DNA from: Polynucleobacter sp. HIN5
GTDB lineage: Bacteria > Pseudomonadota > Gammaproteobacteria > Burkholderiales > Burkholderiaceae
Assembly (NCBI RefSeq): GCF_030297555.1
Contig: NZ_AP028136.1
Location: forward strand, 496,001-560,000
Reading direction: 5' to 3'
DNA: 64,000 nt
Shown: in pieces, positions 1,322 to 64,000 of the stretch
Position numbering within the stretch: position 1 is the stretch's first letter
Layout of the letters: every line of letters begins with the position of its first letter
Program-made: the position numbers and the translations under genes
The notes under the pieces: generated by a model
Database searches by the model: none
Told to the model about the DNA's origin: nothing
The model's input: the letters and a program-made list of their open reading frames with translations, nothing else

Positions 1322-2284
1322 ATGTTTAGGTGCGGCACGATCGCATTAGTGGGCAGGCCCAATATGGGTAAATCCACTCTATTAAATGCACTCGTAGGGC
1401 AAAAAATTAGCATCACATCGCGCAAAGCGCAAACGACCCGCTACCGAATTGCTGGGGTGCAGACGCGTGATCAGGCGCAGTTTATCTTCATCGATACTCC
1501 TGGCTTTCAGACGCGCGTCATGAATACCCTTAATCAGACTCTCAATCGAACGGTAACTAGTACCTTGCATGATGTTGATGTCATCTGTTTCATTGTGGAG
1601 GCGGGTTACTGGGGTGCCGATGATGTCAACGTTTTGCGATTATTACCAAATGACAAGCCGGTACTATTAGTTGCAAATAAGCTGGATTTATTTGCGTCGC
1701 GTTTTGATAATTCCGACGCTCGTGATCTGGAACTTTTTGAGTTCATGAAAAAAATGGCACAGCCATGGGGGGCAATTGCCGAGCAAACCAAGGGTTGCGA
1801 AGCGCAAACAATTGCAAGTCCTGAACAAACCTTTGCTGAAGTGATTCCAATGAGTGGTAAGAATAAGGATGATATTGAGCGCTTATTAGATGTGATTGCA
1901 GAGTACTTACCAGAGGGCGAGGCGCGATACGAGCCCGATACGCTGACGGATCGTAGCGAACGCTTTATGGCTGCTGAGATCTTGCGCGAGAAGGTGTTTC
2001 GTTATACCGGTGATGAGTTGCCGTACTCAAGCTCTGTGGTGATAGACCAGTTCAAGCTAGATGGCAAAATGCGACGTATTGCTGCAACCATTCTGGTAGA
2101 TCGTGACAGTCATAAGGCAATGATCATTGGCCAGAAAGGTGAGCGGCTAAAGAAGATCTCGACCGAAGCTCGTTTAGACATGGAAGCATTGTTTGATAGC
2201 AAAGTTTTCTTAGAGACTTGGGTGAAGGTGAAGCGGGGATGGGCGGATGACCTTGCTGAACTACGTGCTCAGGGTTTGGAATAA
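1322..2284 (+). CDS. era: GTPase Era
   Basis: Ras-like GTPase with a KH RNA-binding domain that binds the 3' end of 16S rRNA and assists 30S subunit maturation. G1 is GRPNMGKS (residues 12-19; the usual form has V for M), G3 is DTPGF and G4 is NKLDL. The KH domain occupies roughly residues 210-300 ([19 protein letters not shown]). Length 320 residues, slightly above the usual 300 because of an insertion between G4 and the KH domain. It lies one base after rnc and one base before recO, so the genes are almost certainly co-transcribed with rnc, whose product also acts in rRNA processing. Confidence 0.95.
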
Positions 2285-3019
2285 ATGGCAGGAACTCGTG
2301 TTCTGGATGAGCCGGGATTTGTACTGCACAGTATTCCCTATAAAGAGACAAGCTTAATTCTGGATGTATTTACCCGTTCGCACGGACGACTGGCATTAAT
2401 CGCTAAAGGTGCGAAGCGCCCTCACTCGAGCTTACGACCAGTTCTGCAGCGCTTTCAGCCACTGCTCATCTCGTGGAGTGGTAAATCAGAGCTCAGAACC
2501 CTCACCAAATCAGAATGGGTCGGAGGTTCTCCAGCCTTAGTTGGAGACGCACTTTTATGTGGTTTCTATCTCAATGAGTTACTGGTGAAGTTTTTGGCTA
2601 GAGAAGATGCCTACGAGTCGCTCTACGACCATTACGCTGATACAGTTTATGCGCTCTCACAAATCGAGTCCGCCGGAACATCGATCGAGCAAACCTTAAG
2701 ACCCTTTGAGCTGGCCCTTTTGCGAGAGACTGGATATGCTGCAGCTCTTGATCATTGTGTGGAGACCCGCTCGCAACCAATGGATGGCGAGCGATATGTC
2801 TATCAGCCCGAGAAGGGGATCCGTCCATGGCAACCCGATGACCCCAGTCATTGGCCGGTACTTGAGGGCTCGGCATTGCGAGCTATGGCGCAGGGAGACT
2901 TTTCGGGATCAGAGACCCTAAGCCAGAGCAAACAATTGATGCGTTTCCTCTTGGGCATTCATCTGCAAGATCAGACTTTGACCACTCGTCAGATCTTGAT
3001 CGATCTAAAAAAGATCTAA
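2285..3019 (+). CDS. recO: DNA repair protein RecO
   Basis: RecO binds single-stranded DNA and SSB and, with RecR, loads RecA at gaps. The 244-residue protein opens with the typical OB-fold N-terminus ([19 protein letters not shown]) followed by [15 protein letters not shown], both hallmarks of the family; the remainder is the helical C-terminal domain. The start follows the era stop directly (TAA ATG). Size and operon position (after era, before pdxJ) match other Burkholderiales and E. coli. No zinc-binding cysteine cluster is visible, as in proteobacterial RecO. Confidence 0.93.
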
Positions 3020-3045
3020 ACGGAACGAAGGCTTTAATATTAGCT

Positions 3046-3774
3046 ATGGCCCCACTAGAGCTTGGAATTAATATCGATCACGTTGCAACCCTGCGTAATG
3101 CTCGGGGGACATCCTATCCCGATCCACTCATGGCGGCACAAATTGCCGAAGCAGCAGGCGCTGATTTGATCACCTTACATTTACGTGAGGATCGGCGTCA
3201 TATCAAAGATGCCGATTTATTTGCGCTTCGACCCTTGATTCGAACCCGTATGAACTTGGAATGTGCAATTACAGCGGAGATGCTGGGCATTGCGATTCAG
3301 GTTAAGCCGCAGGATGTGTGCTTGGTCCCTGAGAAGCGGACCGAAATTACTACTGAAGGCGGGCTCGATGTGATCACTCATCGGGATCAAGTGCACTCTG
3401 CCATCAAGCAACTGCAGGCTTCTGGTATTAGGGTCTCACTCTTTATTGATCCAGACCCTCGCCAAATTGATGTCGCTAAGGAGCTTGGAGCACATGTAAT
3501 TGAGTTACACACTGGAGCCTATGCAGATGCTCAAATAGAGCATCAATCATTCGAGCTGCAGCGAATTACAGAGGCTGCACGCTATGCAAAGAGTTTAGGT
3601 TTTCGAGTCAATGCCGGGCATGGTTTAAATGAGCAAAATGTTCAGCCCATCGCCAAAATCCCTGAAATTAGCGAACTAAATATTGGGCATGCGATCATTG
3701 CAGAGGCTATTTTTAAGGGTCTTCCCAATACGATTCGGGATATGCGCAGACTCATGAATGAGGCGCGTTCGTAA
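3046..3774 (+). CDS. pdxJ: Pyridoxine 5'-phosphate synthase
   Basis: Last ring-forming step of the DXP-dependent vitamin B6 pathway: condenses 3-amino-2-oxopropyl phosphate with 1-deoxyxylulose 5-phosphate to give pyridoxine 5'-phosphate. The TIM-barrel start [18 protein letters not shown] is diagnostic, as are [10 protein letters not shown] near residue 46 and the phosphate-binding NAGHGLN near residue 192. Length 242 residues is normal. Its TAA overlaps the acpS ATG by one base (TAATG), the same pdxJ-acpS coupling as in enterobacteria. Confidence 0.96.
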
Positions 3775-4208
3775 TGATTGTCGGGATCGGCACTGATCTC
3801 TTACAGATGGGTCGACTGCAGTCGGCTTATGAGCGCACCCAAGGTCGCTTAGCCAAGCGGGTTTTGGGTGATGAGGAGTATCAGGTGTTTCAACAGCGAC
3901 TTAGCCGTAATCACAAGCGGGGAATGGCCTACTTGGCTACCCGTTTTGCTGCTAAGGAGGCGTTTTCAAAAGCGATTGGCTTGGGTATGCATATGCCGAT
4001 GAGTTGGCGGTCTTTGCAAACACTCAATGAGCCTAGTGGCAAGCCTTATACAAAATATTCAGGGGCTCTGTTGCAGTTCATGGAAGATAAACAATGGCAT
4101 GCACATGTGACAGTGACTGACGAGCAAGAAATGGTGATGGCGTTTGTGGTCGTGAGTTATGGCACACCGATTGTCACTACCTTTGATCCACAAAACTATT
4201 TAGGTTGA
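3774..4208 (+). CDS. acpS: Holo-[acyl-carrier-protein] synthase
   Basis: Transfers the 4'-phosphopantetheine arm from CoA to apo-acyl carrier protein, activating fatty acid synthesis. The metal-binding Asp is in IGTDLLQMGR (residues 5-14) and the second catalytic acid in RFAAKEAFSKAIG (about residues 61-73). At 144 residues it is a little longer than the usual 125 or so, with the extra residues at the C-terminus. Translation is probably coupled to pdxJ through the overlapping stop and start; nagZ follows four bases after the stop. Confidence 0.95.
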   Translation: MIVGIGTDLLQMGRLQSAYERTQGRLAKRVLGDEEYQVFQQRLSRNHKRGMAYLATRFAAKEAFSKAIGLGMHMPMSWRSLQTLNEPSGKPYTKYSGALLQFMEDKQWHAHVTVTDEQEMVMAFVVVSYGTPIVTTFDPQNYLG

Positions 4209-4212
4209 GACC

Positions 4213-5289
4213 GTGGCAACTCAAAAAAAATCGACTCATAACCCAGGCCCCGTTATTTTGGATGTTGAGGGGCTTACCTTAAACCAACACGATATCCGAC
4301 GCATTAAAAATCCCTTGACGGGGGGCGTAATTTTATTTGGGCGGAACTTTCAATCTCGCAAACAAGTCACCGCTCTCACTAAATCAATCAAGCAAGTCCG
4401 CTCTGATATTCTGATTTGCATTGATCATGAGGGCGGACGAGTACAACGCTGTAAGACTGATGGGTTTATGCATCTTCCCGCCATGCACCGCCTGGGTGAT
4501 CTATGGATGCAAACTGGCACCGGGGCAAGCTCTGCTATTACTGCGATGAAAGCTGCAACCGCATGTGGTTATGTGCTTGCAGCTGAACTAAGGGCGTGTG
4601 GAGTTGACTTTAGTTTCACGCCCGTTTTGGACTTAGATTTTGGTCGCAGTGGGGTGATCGGCGATCGCTCATTTCATCGCAATCCAGAAATTGTGTATGT
4701 TTTAGCAAAGAGCTTGAATGAGGGACTCCGTTTGGGTGATATGGCCAATTGCGGTAAGCACTTTCCAGGGCATGGATGGGCTGAGGCAGACTCCCATATT
4801 GCGATTCCCAAAGACGAACGCTCACTGAATTCTATTGAGAGTGATGATATGAAGCCTTATGAGTGGCTTGATATCAGTCTTGCCTCAGTGATGCCTGCTC
4901 ACGTGATTTATCCAAAGGTGGATGCATTACCCGCCGGCTTTTCCAGAATTTGGTTGCAAACCATCTTGCGTAAAAAGCTAAAGTTTGGTGGTGTAATTTT
5001 TAGTGACGACCTCTCGATGGAGGGAGCCAGTGTCGCTGGTGATGTGGTGCAGGGGGCTCAATTAGCACTTAAGGCAGGATGTGACGCGGTACTGATTTGT
5101 AATCGACCCGATCTTGCTGATCGCTTACTCAAGGAACTAAGCGTTGCGCCAAAGAAATTCACGGAGTCTGCAACGCGACTCAAGAAATTATTTCCGAAGG
5201 GTGAATCCCAGTCCTGGGATGAATTGCAGAAAGACGCTGAGTATCTGCATGCCAAGGATTTATTAAAAACCCTTGGCCTTACTCATTAG
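4213..5289 (+). CDS. nagZ: Beta-N-acetylhexosaminidase (GH3)
   Basis: Cytoplasmic glycosidase of peptidoglycan recycling that removes N-acetylglucosamine from anhydro-muropeptides. The family motif KHFPGHG is near residue 182 and the nucleophile aspartate lies in SDDLSMEG near residue 265; [10 protein letters not shown] (about residue 75) is also conserved. The start is GTG at 4213, four bases after acpS. The 358-residue length is close to that of E. coli NagZ (341). Its stop interlocks with the stop of efp on the other strand (4-base overlap, TTAG), so there is no space for a terminator between the two operons. Confidence 0.93.
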
Positions 5290-59704: not shown

Positions 59705-62155
59705 GTGCTACGCATCGCAATTACGGCATGGATTGCCGGAGGGACAGCTTTTCTCTTTTTACCCAAATTGCCGAATCATGGCCTGGAAGTAAGCGTTCTT
59801 TCCGGAATCTTTTTGCTGATCATTAGCTATTATTTACTTAATCGTAATCGCATTCTCTCGCCCCTCGCAGTTTCACTGGCCTTGGCATTATTGGGATGGG
59901 GCTATCACTTTCATTATGCAAAGGAGAGACTTGCATCGCCCTTACCAATTTTTCTTGAAGATCAGGAGTTAACGATTCGGGGATATGTCGATCAACTACC
60001 TAGTGGTGATCATCAACATCAGCGCTTTGCCTTTGAGGTAGTTGACTGGAATGATGTTCAATCTGAGTCCTTGCCAAGAAAAATCTACTTAAGTTGGAGT
60101 GGGGTGTGGCAAAAAAATCGTTTGATTCCAGAGATTGCTCCGGGTGAAGAGTGGCAATTTGTTGTCAAACTTAAAAGACCGCACACCTTAATGAATGAGC
60201 ATGGCTTTGATTTTGAACGATGGATGTTTCATCAAGGCTTTGGAGCGCATGGCTCGGTTAGGTCAGGTAAGCGAATTCAAGAATCTCAATGGATTTCATT
60301 AAAAACAGCCGTCGAGTATCAACGTTGGCGACTTCGCAATAAGATCAAAGCGGCTCTAGAGCCCTCTGCACCTTATGTTGGGGTATTAATTGCCTTGGTG
60401 ATTGGCGATCAAAATGCCATCGCGCAATCCGATTGGCGGGTATTTAATGCTACTGGTGTCGGGCATTTAATTTCGATATCGGGTTTACATGTCACGATGC
60501 TTTCTGGATTAGGTGCGATGCTGGGGGCTTGGATATGGCGTCGTCGTGAATGGCCGCTCATCATTCCTGTTCAAAAAGTTGCAGCTGCCACTGGGTTGTT
60601 GACTGCGTTTTTATACGCCTGGTTAGCTGGATTTCAAATACCAGCTCAACGAACACTCTACATGGTTGGGATCGTGGCTTTTGCGCTCTGGACTTCCCGA
60701 ATCCCACGCGCCTTTGATATTTGGTGGATTGCCCTCTTTTTGGTTCTGGTAATTGATCCTATGGCTCCTTACACCCCAGGATTCTGGTTGTCGTTTGGCG
60801 CGGTAGCCATTATTTTGTATGGCATGGGCTCCTCATCAAGTCTCATTGGTATCCCGAATGGGAGTGAGTGGGAACGCAGTCGACTCGAACAACTCAAACA
60901 AGCCTTTTTTGAATCTTGCCGCTTGCAATGGATTGTGACCATTGCGTTGATACCGTGCACTTTATATTGGTTTTACCAGGTATCCATCGTGTCGCCATTC
61001 GCCAATGCAATAGCAATCCCGGTGATTAGTTTTATTGTGACCCCCTTAGCGATTGCTGGCGCGATTCTTCCCGAATGGTTTGCACCAATCCTTCTCCAGC
61101 TTGCGCATGGAGCAATGGAGTGGACCGCAAAATACCTGAATTGGCTAGCAAAATTTGATTGGGCAGTCCATTGGTCCCACCAACCGACCCTATGGGCTAT
61201 AGCTTTATCGACTGTGGGGATCTATTGGCATATTCGTCCGGGTCCGATGGCAAGTCATCTGATGAGTCGGATTGTGGGACTTGCACTTTGCGCCCCATTA
61301 TTTTGGCAAGCGGCCCACACGATCAATCATGGTCAATTTAGGGCCTATGTATTTGATATTGGGCAGGGCACCGCAGTCCTCATTGAGACAAAATCGCATC
61401 GGCTCTTATATGATGCTGGCCCACTTTCCGGAAAAAATGACAATGCTGGGGAGCGGTTATTGCTACCGTACTTTCGTGGAGAGGGGATTGATCGACTAGA
61501 TCGATTAGTCATTAGCCATAAAGACTTAGATCACATTGCTGGCGCCAGCACACTAATGAAGAGCCTAAAGATCCAATCATTTTTGGGTACGATGCCAGAA
61601 CATCATCCATTAATGAATGACCTCAAACAATCATCCATACCAGCACTGCCATGTCAGTTTGGTCAAGAATGGCAATGGGATGGTGTGGACTTTAAAGTCT
61701 GGCATCCGTCTGAGGAAGTAAGCTTTAAAGCAGATACGCACCGAGGAAAGCCTAATGAAAATAGTTGTGTGCTGGAGATCCGCAATTCCCACACAAGTTT
61801 TTGGTTAACAGGCGACATTGAAAAACGAGGAGAGCATGAGCACGCTCGGCGTCTAGAGGATGTGGGTTACCAAAAGCCCAAGAGGGTGGTGGTCATGGTC
61901 CCACATCACGGTAGCAAAACATCATCATCACAGATATGGCTAGATGCCATCCAGCCAACCGCGGCGTTTTCTCAGCACGGATACCGAAATCGGTATGGTC
62001 ATCCACATAGCGTTGTGAAGGAACGGTATCGAGACAATCAAATTCCGTTTCTTGAAACCACGCATACTGGCGCACAGCATTGGCGCACCACTACTGACGA
62101 CCTTACCGTTGAGTTCCTAAGACCCAAGCAAAAGCGATTGTGGCATCACGAATAG
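59705..62155 (+). CDS. comEC: ComEC/Rec2 DNA-uptake channel protein
   Basis: Inner-membrane channel for single-stranded DNA uptake in natural transformation. Order: N-terminal membrane spans and a DUF4131/OB region (residues 1-190), a ComEC competence domain with multiple spans (about 220-520, including HLISISGLHVTMLSGLGA), and a C-terminal metallo-beta-lactamase domain (about 545-800) with ISHKDLDHIAG and PHHGSKTSSS metal motifs. 816 residues, complete. GTG start two bases after tatD. It is the last gene before the tRNA-fMet fragment. Confidence 0.92.
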   Translation: MLRIAITAWIAGGTAFLFLPKLPNHGLEVSVLSGIFLLIISYYLLNRNRILSPLAVSLALALLGWGYHFHYAKERLASPLPIFLEDQELTIRGYVDQLPSGDHQHQRFAFEVVDWNDVQSESLPRKIYLSWSGVWQKNRLIPEIAPGEEWQFVVKLKRPHTLMNEHGFDFERWMFHQGFGAHGSVRSGKRIQESQWISLKTAVEYQRWRLRNKIKAALEPSAPYVGVLIALVIGDQNAIAQSDWRVFNATGVGHLISISGLHVTMLSGLGAMLGAWIWRRREWPLIIPVQKVAAATGLLTAFLYAWLAGFQIPAQRTLYMVGIVAFALWTSRIPRAFDIWWIALFLVLVIDPMAPYTPGFWLSFGAVAIILYGMGSSSSLIGIPNGSEWERSRLEQLKQAFFESCRLQWIVTIALIPCTLYWFYQVSIVSPFANAIAIPVISFIVTPLAIAGAILPEWFAPILLQLAHGAMEWTAKYLNWLAKFDWAVHWSHQPTLWAIALSTVGIYWHIRPGPMASHLMSRIVGLALCAPLFWQAAHTINHGQFRAYVFDIGQGTAVLIETKSHRLLYDAGPLSGKNDNAGERLLLPYFRGEGIDRLDRLVISHKDLDHIAGASTLMKSLKIQSFLGTMPEHHPLMNDLKQSSIPALPCQFGQEWQWDGVDFKVWHPSEEVSFKADTHRGKPNENSCVLEIRNSHTSFWLTGDIEKRGEHEHARRLEDVGYQKPKRVVVMVPHHGSKTSSSQIWLDAIQPTAAFSQHGYRNRYGHPHSVVKERYRDNQIPFLETTHTGAQHWRTTTDDLTVEFLRPKQKRLWHHE

Positions 62156-62210: not shown

Positions 62211-62255
62211 TGGTTGCGGGGATAGGATTTGAACCTATGACCTTCGGGTTATGAG
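62211..62255 (-). pseudogene. 3' fragment of initiator tRNA-fMet (attachment-site remnant)
   Basis: Exactly 45 nt corresponding to tRNA positions 32-76: anticodon loop CTCATAA with anticodon CAT, anticodon stem 3' strand CCCGA, T-arm ATAGG-TTCAAAT-CCTAT, acceptor 3' strand CCCCGCA, then ACCA. The CCC run in the anticodon stem and the match to E. coli fMet (CTCATAACCCGAAGGTC) identify the initiator type. The 5' half is absent on the upstream side, where sequence diverges right at position 32. This is the typical residue of integration by a tRNA-targeting integrase. Confidence 0.88.
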
Positions 62256-62270
62256 TGCGTAAATCCCGAA
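62243..62270. other. Candidate attachment-site core
   Basis: TTCGGG (62243-62248) and CCCGAA (62265-62270) form an inverted repeat around 16 bases that include the anticodon. One arm is the tRNA anticodon stem, the other lies on the island side. Such imperfect inverted repeats around a crossover region are what tyrosine recombinases bind. Inferred from arrangement. Confidence 0.55.
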
Positions 62271-62323
62271 TGACATAGGTATAAACTCCTTTTAAATATT
62301 GGCTTACAGGTCGGTAGTCTAAA

Positions 62324-62347
62324 TACCATCAAACTTACCATCAAACT
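62324..62347. repeat. Perfect tandem 12-bp repeat, candidate integrase arm sites
   Basis: Two adjacent copies of TACCATCAAACT, 69 bases from the end of the tRNA fragment. Short direct repeats next to a tRNA-borne core site commonly are arm-type binding sites for integrase or excisionase. The stretch 62156-62388 otherwise holds no gene. Confidence 0.6.
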
Positions 62348-62388
62348 AAGAAGCTGTCCAATACCCATTTTTTTAGCCAAAATGACGG

Positions 62389-63801
62389 TTAATATTCCGC
62401 ATGAATTCTGAAGGAGAGAATATTTACGGGTCCACGAGCAGCGTTATATGCTGGATTTTGAATGTGCTGTAAGTTCACGCCAGCCAAGACCCTTTTGATA
62501 ACTGTGGCGTTATAGTAAATCTCAGCTATTTGCTCAGGTTTATAGGTAATTGTTTGTCCTGGTCCTGCGTAGTCGCCGATGAAAAATGACACCCCACCAG
62601 CCTTTAGATATTGTTGACGAGCGTTTGATAATCCATTACGCATTAAAGATATTCCGAGGGTATCCGCTGGTCTAGACCACGAATTACCATTAATTCCAGC
62701 ACCAATAGAGATGGAATTATCAGCCTCAGCAAACGCCATTGTCTCCGTTTGTCCGTCGGATTTAAATATACGCATATAAACACCAGCATCATTGGTAATC
62801 GCTTGTTCAGCATTAAGACCAAAACCTGTCTTAAATTGTTCATTAGTACGAACATTGTTAATAGCTTGAGTACCTTGAGCGTTATTTTGAATAACGTAAT
62901 TTGTCGCATCAGCAAAGCGAGCCAGTACCATTTTGTTACGATACGCTAAGACGCTAACTTTCCCAGGTAAATTGCTAATTGAATGTCCGCGCTCTACTTC
63001 AATTTGATCGCCGTAGTGCTTCATGATGTTCCAGTCGATCGGTAAACCATTTGGATCTCTCGGTGTCGTCATTCGTGACGCACGTAAAACCCAGTTTTCC
63101 AAATACCATTCCCCAGCTAAACCCCAACCGTAGCCTCTACTATCCGCAGCGTAGTCATAAGCAAGATAAGTTAAATTACCCCAGTTCATAAACTGCGTTC
63201 TCGGATCTTTAGCGTATCGACTATCGTCAAAAATATCCAAAGCAGAAAATTGACCAGCAGTTATAACAACACGATTAGTACTTACCGTTTGCGCAATTTG
63301 ATTCGCCTCATCTTCAAGGTAAATTTTTTCACCATCTTGATTAAAGGTTGATCGTAAAAAAGCCCGAGCGGAATAAAACTTCGCTTGTGACCCTGTGGCT
63401 TTATTTGCTTCACCGTTACTCAACCCACCCAAACCCACCAAGCCTGAAAATGGTACGCCTGAGATCACCTCCGGGTTGAAGTAAACATCAGTGTTTGGAG
63501 CTATTCTGGCGCCTAAAAATAGCGTTCCAGACCATGTATAACTTAGCGAGTGATTACTTTTTAGGCTATTCGGACCGCTATATTGCGCATTAAAGTTTGG
63601 ATAGCGTTGGTTGATGTAGGTTGTTTGACCGTGTACGTTGACTGGAAATCCAAAGATTTCATACTCCGTGGGTATTAGTTTTTGTCCCGCTGTTTCTTTT
63701 GGTGCTTCGTACGTTGCTGGCTCGGGACGATAACTCTCAACCCTTTGAGCAAAAACAGGTAGACAGGTAAACAACAGGAGAGCTATTACTAAAAGACGCA
63801 T
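62389..63801 (-). CDS. OprB-family carbohydrate-selective porin
   Basis: 470-residue outer-membrane protein with a signal peptide (LVIALLLFTCLPVFA, cleavage near residue 19). The mature part reads as alternating beta strands with family blocks VHGQTTYINQRYPNFNAQYSG and ARIAPNTDVYFNPE near the start, DDSRYAKDPRTQFMNWG in the middle and a C-terminal strand ending in an aromatic residue (FRIHAEY). It should let sugars or other small solutes pass; the substrate cannot be told. It lies on the island side of the att site and appears AT-richer than comEC. Confidence 0.85.
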   Translation of the reverse strand: MRLLVIALLLFTCLPVFAQRVESYRPEPATYEAPKETAGQKLIPTEYEIFGFPVNVHGQTTYINQRYPNFNAQYSGPNSLKSNHSLSYTWSGTLFLGARIAPNTDVYFNPEVISGVPFSGLVGLGGLSNGEANKATGSQAKFYSARAFLRSTFNQDGEKIYLEDEANQIAQTVSTNRVVITAGQFSALDIFDDSRYAKDPRTQFMNWGNLTYLAYDYAADSRGYGWGLAGEWYLENWVLRASRMTTPRDPNGLPIDWNIMKHYGDQIEVERGHSISNLPGKVSVLAYRNKMVLARFADATNYVIQNNAQGTQAINNVRTNEQFKTGFGLNAEQAITNDAGVYMRIFKSDGQTETMAFAEADNSISIGAGINGNSWSRPADTLGISLMRNGLSNARQQYLKAGGVSFFIGDYAGPGQTITYKPEQIAEIYYNATVIKRVLAGVNLQHIQNPAYNAARGPVNILSFRIHAEY

Positions 63802-63852
63802 AAATCGTTTATTTGATAATCCGCCACATTATGATGTTTTCATTACGGTTTC

Positions 63853-64000
63853 ATGTATTTGTTTGTACTTTTGTCTGCGGTAGTGTGTTGTTTGGTGGAT
63901 GGTGATGAGCCGAGGTACGTCAAAATAGAGCTAAAATACCCGAAGGTTTTACCGAAAAAAGTCCAACAAAAGACTGGGCTAGAGTCAAGGATTACGCTAC
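63853..64000 (+). other. Open frame running off the right edge, unassigned
   Basis: From ATG 63853 a frame stays open to the window end (49 codons) with a hydrophobic start MYLFVLLSAVVCCLVDG like a signal or membrane segment. A second frame is also open from a stop at about 63899 and contains EGFTEKSPTKDWARVKDYA, which looks more protein-like but has no start codon. Only one can be real, or the region is a remnant. No ribosome site in either case. Confidence 0.25.

Follow-up and report, generated by a model that had tools for sequence, protein, structure and literature searches.

An integrative island of 19.9 kb has almost certainly entered the initiator tRNA gene of Polynucleobacter sp. HIN5 by site-specific recombination, with tRNA-fMet being restored by the element itself. 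The left end of the island lies in the stretch of 64,000 nucleotides that was analysed (the window, G000:C1:496001-560000, G000 being the genome studied, a single contig of 1,880,609 bases). An island boundary inside an initiator tRNA gene had been proposed from the window alone (the original prediction), and this interpretation is now supported by a tRNA fragment, a restored gene, an empty site in relatives and an integrase. The positions of the features are collected in Table 1.

The fragment, CTCATAACCCGAAGGTCATAGGTTCAAATCCTATCCCCGCAACCA, is 45 nt long and runs from C32, the first base of the anticodon loop, to A76. It had been described as exactly positions 32-76 of tRNA-fMet on the minus strand, with similarity ending at the first base of the anticodon loop. 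Both points hold: the match to the 3' part of the intact gene is 45/45, and the bases ahead of C32 diverge from that gene at once. Neither ARAGORN nor Rfam calls the fragment, as expected for half a gene; in the window ARAGORN reports only tRNA-Gly and tRNA-Cys, and Rfam the same two places. A complete tRNA-fMet had been predicted on the minus strand beyond the right edge of the window, at a distance of up to several hundred kb. ARAGORN finds an intact tRNA-Met(CAT) on that strand at G000:C1:578141-578217 (4141-4217 of locus L004), 19.9 kb away; 19,885 bp (558256-578140) separate the two 45-nt copies, which have the same orientation. A search of the whole genome with CTCATAACCCGAAGGTC, allowing at most one mismatch, returns two places, the fragment and G000:C1:578169-578185 (minus strand), while a 16-nt piece of the tRNA-fMet 5' half, again with at most one mismatch, occurs once. 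The gene at 578141-578217 is therefore the only intact initiator gene found; a second, diverged copy could also exist in the genome.

Table 1. Features at the left end of the island and their positions (window coordinates unless marked G000).
Feature	Position	Strand	Remarks
comEC-like host gene, 816-aa ORF, left flank of island	59705..62155	+	collinear with the empty site of G127 and G001
Displaced tRNA-fMet 3' half, positions 32-76 (host-derived half of attL)	62211-62255	-	45/45 identical to G000:C1:578141-578185
Anticodon loop CTCATAA, inferred 7-bp crossover region	62249..62255	-	attL/attR identity begins at C32
Left 1.7 kb of island	62256..64000	.	continues past the window to G000:C1:578140
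Element-derived bases by the crossover, inferred core site C	62256..62264	-	first nine beyond tRNA identity
Mirror site M on the element side, repeating tRNA 39-46 in inverted form	62265..62272	-	7/8 bases; longer arm reaches 62285
Inferred arm-type integrase site ACCATCAAACT, tRNA-nearer copy	62325..62335	+	exact; also at this place in G154 and, with one mismatch, in G085
Inferred arm-type integrase site ACCATCAAACT, second copy, 12 bp on	62337..62347	+	exact; same place in G085 and G154
OprB-type porin gene, cargo between arm sites and integrase	62389..63801	-	Pfam PF04966, E 1.1e-20
Tyrosine integrase, 447 aa	G000:C1:560013-561356	+ (antisense to tRNA)	1.76 kb from the break

Four relatives were compared with G000, and two of them, G127 and G001, carry comEC followed by an intact tRNA, as had been predicted for genomes lacking the element. 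The gene order in G127 is comEC, intact tRNA and a kup-like gene (the names comEC and kup-like are read from the sequence). Bases 1-1527 of the G127 site match the left flank of the island up to and including the fragment, and the restored gene and the right flank are covered by bases 1483-5098, so that the alignments overlap at 1483-1527, exactly 45 nt; an identical 45-nt overlap is found in G001 (1473-1517). As these island-free genomes overlap by exactly the 45 nt in question, the duplication is real. On the original prediction, relatives without an island should not share the fragment and its flank, and in G127 and G001 the site is empty. G060 is diverged yet collinear, and its tRNA match continues through about 54 bp of the element-borne sequence that flanks the restored gene; G050 matches the right side and the 45 nt alone, the comEC side having no match. 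tRNA halves can arise through deletion, and in G036 and on the second contig of G045 there are fragments remote from the tRNA, which might suggest that the HIN5 fragment is a chance match or a decayed tRNA pseudogene with no link to insertion. This explanation is extremely improbable: it is already contradicted by the empty-site alignments of two relatives, with their overlap of 45 nt, and it sits badly with the perfect identity of the fragment and with the integrase and repeats that adjoin it.

Because both 45-nt copies are identical, the origin of each was judged from its flanks. The sequence flanking the fragment in G000 (GTCTCTCAAG...) is similar to that beside the tRNA of G127 and G001 (ATCTCTCA...), while that flanking the restored gene is not. 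Thus, the fragment is the half that belonged to the host, and the 3' half of the restored gene arrived with the element. Behind the restored CCA lie an inverted repeat and a T run, AGCCCTTATTTTATAAGGGCTTTTTGC, the folded stretch having an energy of -15.0 kcal/mol, so that the element seems to provide a terminator-like flank for the tRNA too. This flank looks as though it was taken from another Polynucleobacter.

Tyrosine integrases are well known to act in the anticodon loop and to restore the tRNA (available text of PMC4383910 and PMC8371274), and the anticodon-loop rule given in the latter would place the crossover in HIN5 within this loop. In the proposed mechanism, the integrase would have exchanged strands in the 7-bp loop, so that the chromosome's own 3' half (32-76) stayed beside comEC, at the far end of the island. 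The chromosomal 5' half would have been joined to the attP copy of the 45 nt and, behind it, the terminator-like repeat that the element carries. The outcome would be an unchanged tRNA-fMet; the restored tRNA-fMet of G000 is identical to that of G127.

The island has a GC content of 0.391, compared with 0.469 and 0.485 in its flanks. Its ORFs of at least 90 aa encode, from left to right, the OprB porin (minus strand), the 447-aa integrase (plus strand), unknowns, the type I restriction proteins HsdR, HsdS and HsdM, a 543-aa protein (AlbA_2 domain, weak HsdS match), a 218-aa serine resolvase and further unknowns. In the 543-aa protein of the restriction cluster (L003 16628-18256) an HsdS-like part is fused to the AlbA_2 (Schlafen) domain. 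Of 17 ORFs of this size that were taken as genes, 13 (all but those of 117, 122, 141 and 179 aa) were scanned with Pfam, and no relaxase or conjugation genes were seen among them. The island may still be mobile.

A tyrosine recombinase had been predicted beside the intact tRNA. The recombinase is present, but it sits at the fragment end and not by the restored gene. It has a PHROG integrase match (E 1.2e-21); in Pfam only Phage_int_M is matched, below the cut-off, and there is no arm-domain match at E 1e-3. The predicted model has the lambda-Int fold (compared with PDB 1z1g, 1z1b and 5j0n). Residues R239, K275, R384 and Y417, invariant in 36 sequences, would correspond to the catalytic R-K-HxxR-[H/W]-Y set, with Tyr381 in the place of the first His of HxxR. 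Residues 23-73 are predicted to form three strands and one helix, and the lambda chains align from residue 8 or 9. In G154, G007 and G086 the integrase begins within about 220 bp of the fragment, straight after the arms, leaving no space for a porin gene.

Repeats are found at common places on both ends of the island. The left end of G000 has two exact copies of ACCATCAAACT at a distance of 12 bp, the first bases being -92 and -80 from C32, and at the right end copies stand at +114 (minus), +129 (plus) and +167 (minus). The left-end places are the same in G085 and G154, the right-end ones in G085 being +112/+127. G007 and G086 have another motif (TTTGGTGC/TTTAGTGC) at the corresponding places, -90/-78 and +92/+108. 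As sequence repeats, the arm-type sites therefore flank the core on both sides, and the integrase would be expected to bind them. With at most one mismatch, ACCATCAAACT occurs six times in L003 and nine times in L004, where 0.51 would be expected in each; these loci overlap by 2 kb and have one match in common, and three of the L004 matches are in host flank. Just ahead of its integrase start, G000 has a further copy, ACCATCTAACT, whose letters recur near the integrase start of G154; such a position would suit autoregulation.

Another tandem pair of the arm motif, degenerate but likewise 12 bp apart, is found inside the island at G000:C1:576263-576285 (L004 2263-2285), 1.9 kb from the right end, and is perhaps the seam of an older element. 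This inner pair raises the question of whether two elements entered the site one after the other, making the island a composite of which only part belongs to the present integrase. The serine resolvase in the island would be in keeping with such a history, as would G068, in which two fragments follow each other at this site, each with its own integrase. When the inner pair was inspected by eye, however, no tRNA fragment was seen beside it, and a composite origin is considered rather unlikely.

The 12-bp-period pair of the att site recurs in the family of the HIN5 integrase. Seventeen sites were compared, 16 with an integrase in the locus and that of G085 without one. When direct pairs with periods of 11-13 were sought in the stretch from -40 to -230, the best pair had a period of 12 and started at -90 to -94 in all 17, its score being reached by at most 5% of shuffles in 16 of them and by a fraction of 0.267 for G086. 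The 17 sites are not 17 independent cases, as several are near relatives. Duplicate loci (L094-L104, L106-L108, L112 and L182) were dropped. Outside the count stand L082 (intact tRNA-Arg beside the integrase), L087, equal to L183 of G055 (intact tRNA-fMet), L093, equal to L110 (a tRNA-Arg 5' part on the other strand, by eye), L092, equal to L184 (match 660 bp away), and relatives of about 36% identity or less, in which the search pattern places no fragment at the expected position.

Among integrase relatives of about 39-86% identity, the T-arm of a tRNA 3' half lies 117-249 bp from the estimated integrase start, with the integrase antisense, the search having covered this orientation only. The search for related loci kept 80 of 133 relatives; a separate protein search gave 560 homologues, of which 120 were listed. 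The targets are fMet, Lys and Met, the intact partners for Lys and Met being called by ARAGORN, and reading of the anticodons adds Asn and two more. In wider searches, no member of the integrase family was found outside the genus at E 1e-60 among 398 genomes sampled at family level; among 399 sampled at order level there were six matches outside it, none with a tRNA 3' fragment in the expected place. Plasmids yielded no close relative. Viral contigs yielded no match by pattern and, by profile search, one distant relative, likewise with no tRNA 3' fragment in the expected place. Some distant relatives (L089, L090, L091 and L193-L196) stand beside apparent porin genes, read from sequence, and not beside tRNAs.

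An inverted repeat bracketing the break had formed part of the original prediction. It exists, at 62228-62248 and 62265-62285 (21 nt, 81%, arms 16 nt apart), but it does not belong to the general scheme of tRNA insertion. Instead it is, as judged from sequence comparison, a feature of part of one integrase family's att sites, and is partly beyond chance. Folded as RNA, the strand with the repeat has an energy of -23.4 kcal/mol (z = -3.36; the mean for shuffled sequences is -14.1). The outer part of the repeat is not common to the nearest relatives, G154 and G085, and a covariation of this long outer arm with the host T-arm, apparent from G000 and G085, is broken by G154. The inner part, TCGGG-N16-CCCGA, occurs exactly in five of 186 genomes, each time at a tRNA-fMet fragment. 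When up to one mismatch is allowed, the reversed control also matches in five of 186, and thus the pattern search alone proves nothing past placement. The 16-nt spacing of M recurs in G154, G085, G007 and G086.

At the 17 family sites, the reverse complement of tRNA 39-46 was sought on the element side at spacings of 8-25 nt. It is matched at 7/8 bases or better in eight sites, with spacings of 15-18 nt in all eight, and at 6/8 in four (spacings 16, 16, 9 and 25); the remaining five are lower, four of these at 4/8 or less. When sites are grouped by lineage, 5 of 11 reach 7/8. Mispaired controls between groups do so in only 2 of 228 cases, both between Lys-type sites, and among 15 sites of the other integrase group at tRNA-fMet none reaches 6/8 or exceeds 5. 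Set against these controls, the counts indicate that part of the family genuinely has the mirror pattern, which is missing elsewhere. The idea that M is a relic of the tRNA's own 5' strand was rejected, since the reverse complement fits better; scored by hand, it matches at 8/8 as against 6/8 for Lys, 7/8 as against 5/8 for Met (G077 and G087) and, at the fMet sites, 7/8 as against 6/8 in G007, 7/8 as against 5/8 in G000 and 6/8 as against 5/8 in G154.

There is a serious chance, if not quite an even one, that M has no function and arose by template switching, or by coincidence, at a quasi-palindrome beside the tRNA stem. Nine of the 17 sites fall below 7/8, four of them to 4/8 or less, and the long outer arm of G000 is absent from G154 and G085, all of which would be natural for a site of no consequence. 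Less easily explained are the excess over the mispaired sites and the other integrase group, and the narrow range of spacings among the eight best sites. In the fMet group, the nine bases between the loop and M differ between G000, G154 and G085 on the one hand and G007 and G086 on the other, and yet the inner part of M is kept. Between G077 and G087, a G/A difference in the tRNA stem is accompanied by the matching C/T in M. Tentatively, M may be a target-matched third core-type site, or a foldback element, which is used by the integrase and follows its tRNA (fMet, Lys, Met or Asn). If M does have such a role, it would perhaps let the integrase tell attP and attL from attB, so setting the direction of the reaction, and it would show how elements keep pace on moving to a new tRNA.

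The use of tRNA-fMet as a target is not confined to HIN5. The core pattern has matches in 179 of 186 congeneric genomes, with at least two in 32, one in 147 and none in 7 (these counts were made by hand, and some of the 32 are incomplete assemblies); the second match in G021 has an altered anticodon loop. The loci of 20 of the 32 multi-match genomes were examined in detail. All 20 have exactly one intact tRNA-fMet gene, and they contain 22 fragments in total, 18 of which have an integrase antisense beside them on the element side. Three of these integrases belong to the group of G000 (G000, G007 and G086) and 15 to a second group (PF00589, with PF13356 Arm-DNA-bind_3 in the four that were scanned), the two groups having no blastp similarity at E 1e-3. 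On the sequence evidence, the tRNA-fMet gene is an insertion hotspot in the genus, used by at least two integrase groups.

Exceptions to this arrangement are of several kinds. In G055 a related integrase (32% identical) stands beside the intact tRNA instead of the fragment. In G085 an island of 2.2 kb (L046 1501-3724) occupies this tRNA gene and has both of its att ends. Its arm repeats resemble those of G000, its single cargo gene has TPR-like repeats (read from sequence) and its tRNA fragment is starting to decay; the island has no integrase and the genome no relative of the G000 integrase at E 1e-20. It may have moved in trans or lost its integrase. Far from the tRNA, fMet 3' halves with a terminator-like flank are found in G036 (L057 1637, 400 kb away) and on contig 2 of G045 (L055 2651); the two have the bases just ahead of them in common, and no PF00589 match is listed within about 15 kb. 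G068 (L043-L044) contains three core copies, two fragments in a row followed by one intact tRNA, and the integrases of its two fragments are 40% identical. In every pair across the 20 genomes, the T-arm of the restored gene equals that of the fragment (ATAGG or GTAGG type, by clade), the decayed G085 fragment being the sole exception, which suggests clade-bound elements or conversion.

The HIN5 island resembles the class A tRNA-gene islands of Islander, as set out in the available text of PMC4383910, where an intact tRNA at one end and a 3' fragment at the other enclose a tyrosine integrase, and the att block runs from the anticodon loop to the 3' end. By the count given there, 2083 islands are anticodon-centred and 3760 have a 3' fragment. 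HIN5 shows the corresponding features: an intact tRNA and same-orientation fragment, a non-Xer tyrosine integrase and an uninterrupted site in G127 and G001. It differs in its target, the one initiator tRNA found, a hotspot of which the same text makes no mention. In the KplE1/HK620 modules the integrase, intS, reads away from attL with arm and core sites in front; according to the available text of PMC2951348, this module is widespread among prophages in tRNA genes, and intS autoregulation has been shown. The likeness is one of layout, with attL at the front of the integrase, and it fits G007, G086 and G154, whereas in G000 1.7 kb with the porin gene intervenes.

Lambda provides a further comparison. 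The predicted model of the island integrase is alike in fold, with a small N-terminal domain before the core-binding and catalytic domains, and in both systems repeats lie on both sides of the core. However, identity is about 14-15%, the island integrase has YxxR for HxxR and its own arm motif, and its arms comprise a tandem pair of 12-bp period on one side and an inverted pair on the other. What the second group of integrases shares with that of G000 is the tRNA gene and, in 15 places, the antisense position beside the fragment; it differs in sequence, as noted above, and has no mirror site. Prophages carrying tRNA-fMet genes, but inserted in other tRNA genes, appear in the available parts of PMC11476347 and PMC12429752. 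Among the titles and abstracts searched, whose coverage is incomplete and sparse for subscription papers, none was found on tRNA-fMet islands in Polynucleobacter, on such a mirror site, or on a genus in which an apparently single initiator tRNA is targeted repeatedly.

The common geometry of these sites, with a pair of 12-bp period at -90 to -94 and, where present, M at 15-18 nt, would define an att site for a family found at several tRNAs. If there is no diverged second copy of the initiator gene, the initiation of protein synthesis in HIN5 would rely on a tRNA whose 3' half and terminator-like flank derive from a mobile element. The repeated use of this gene in the genus, by at least two integrase groups, shows that an essential and apparently single-copy tRNA is a workable hotspot, provided that the element rebuilds the tRNA exactly.
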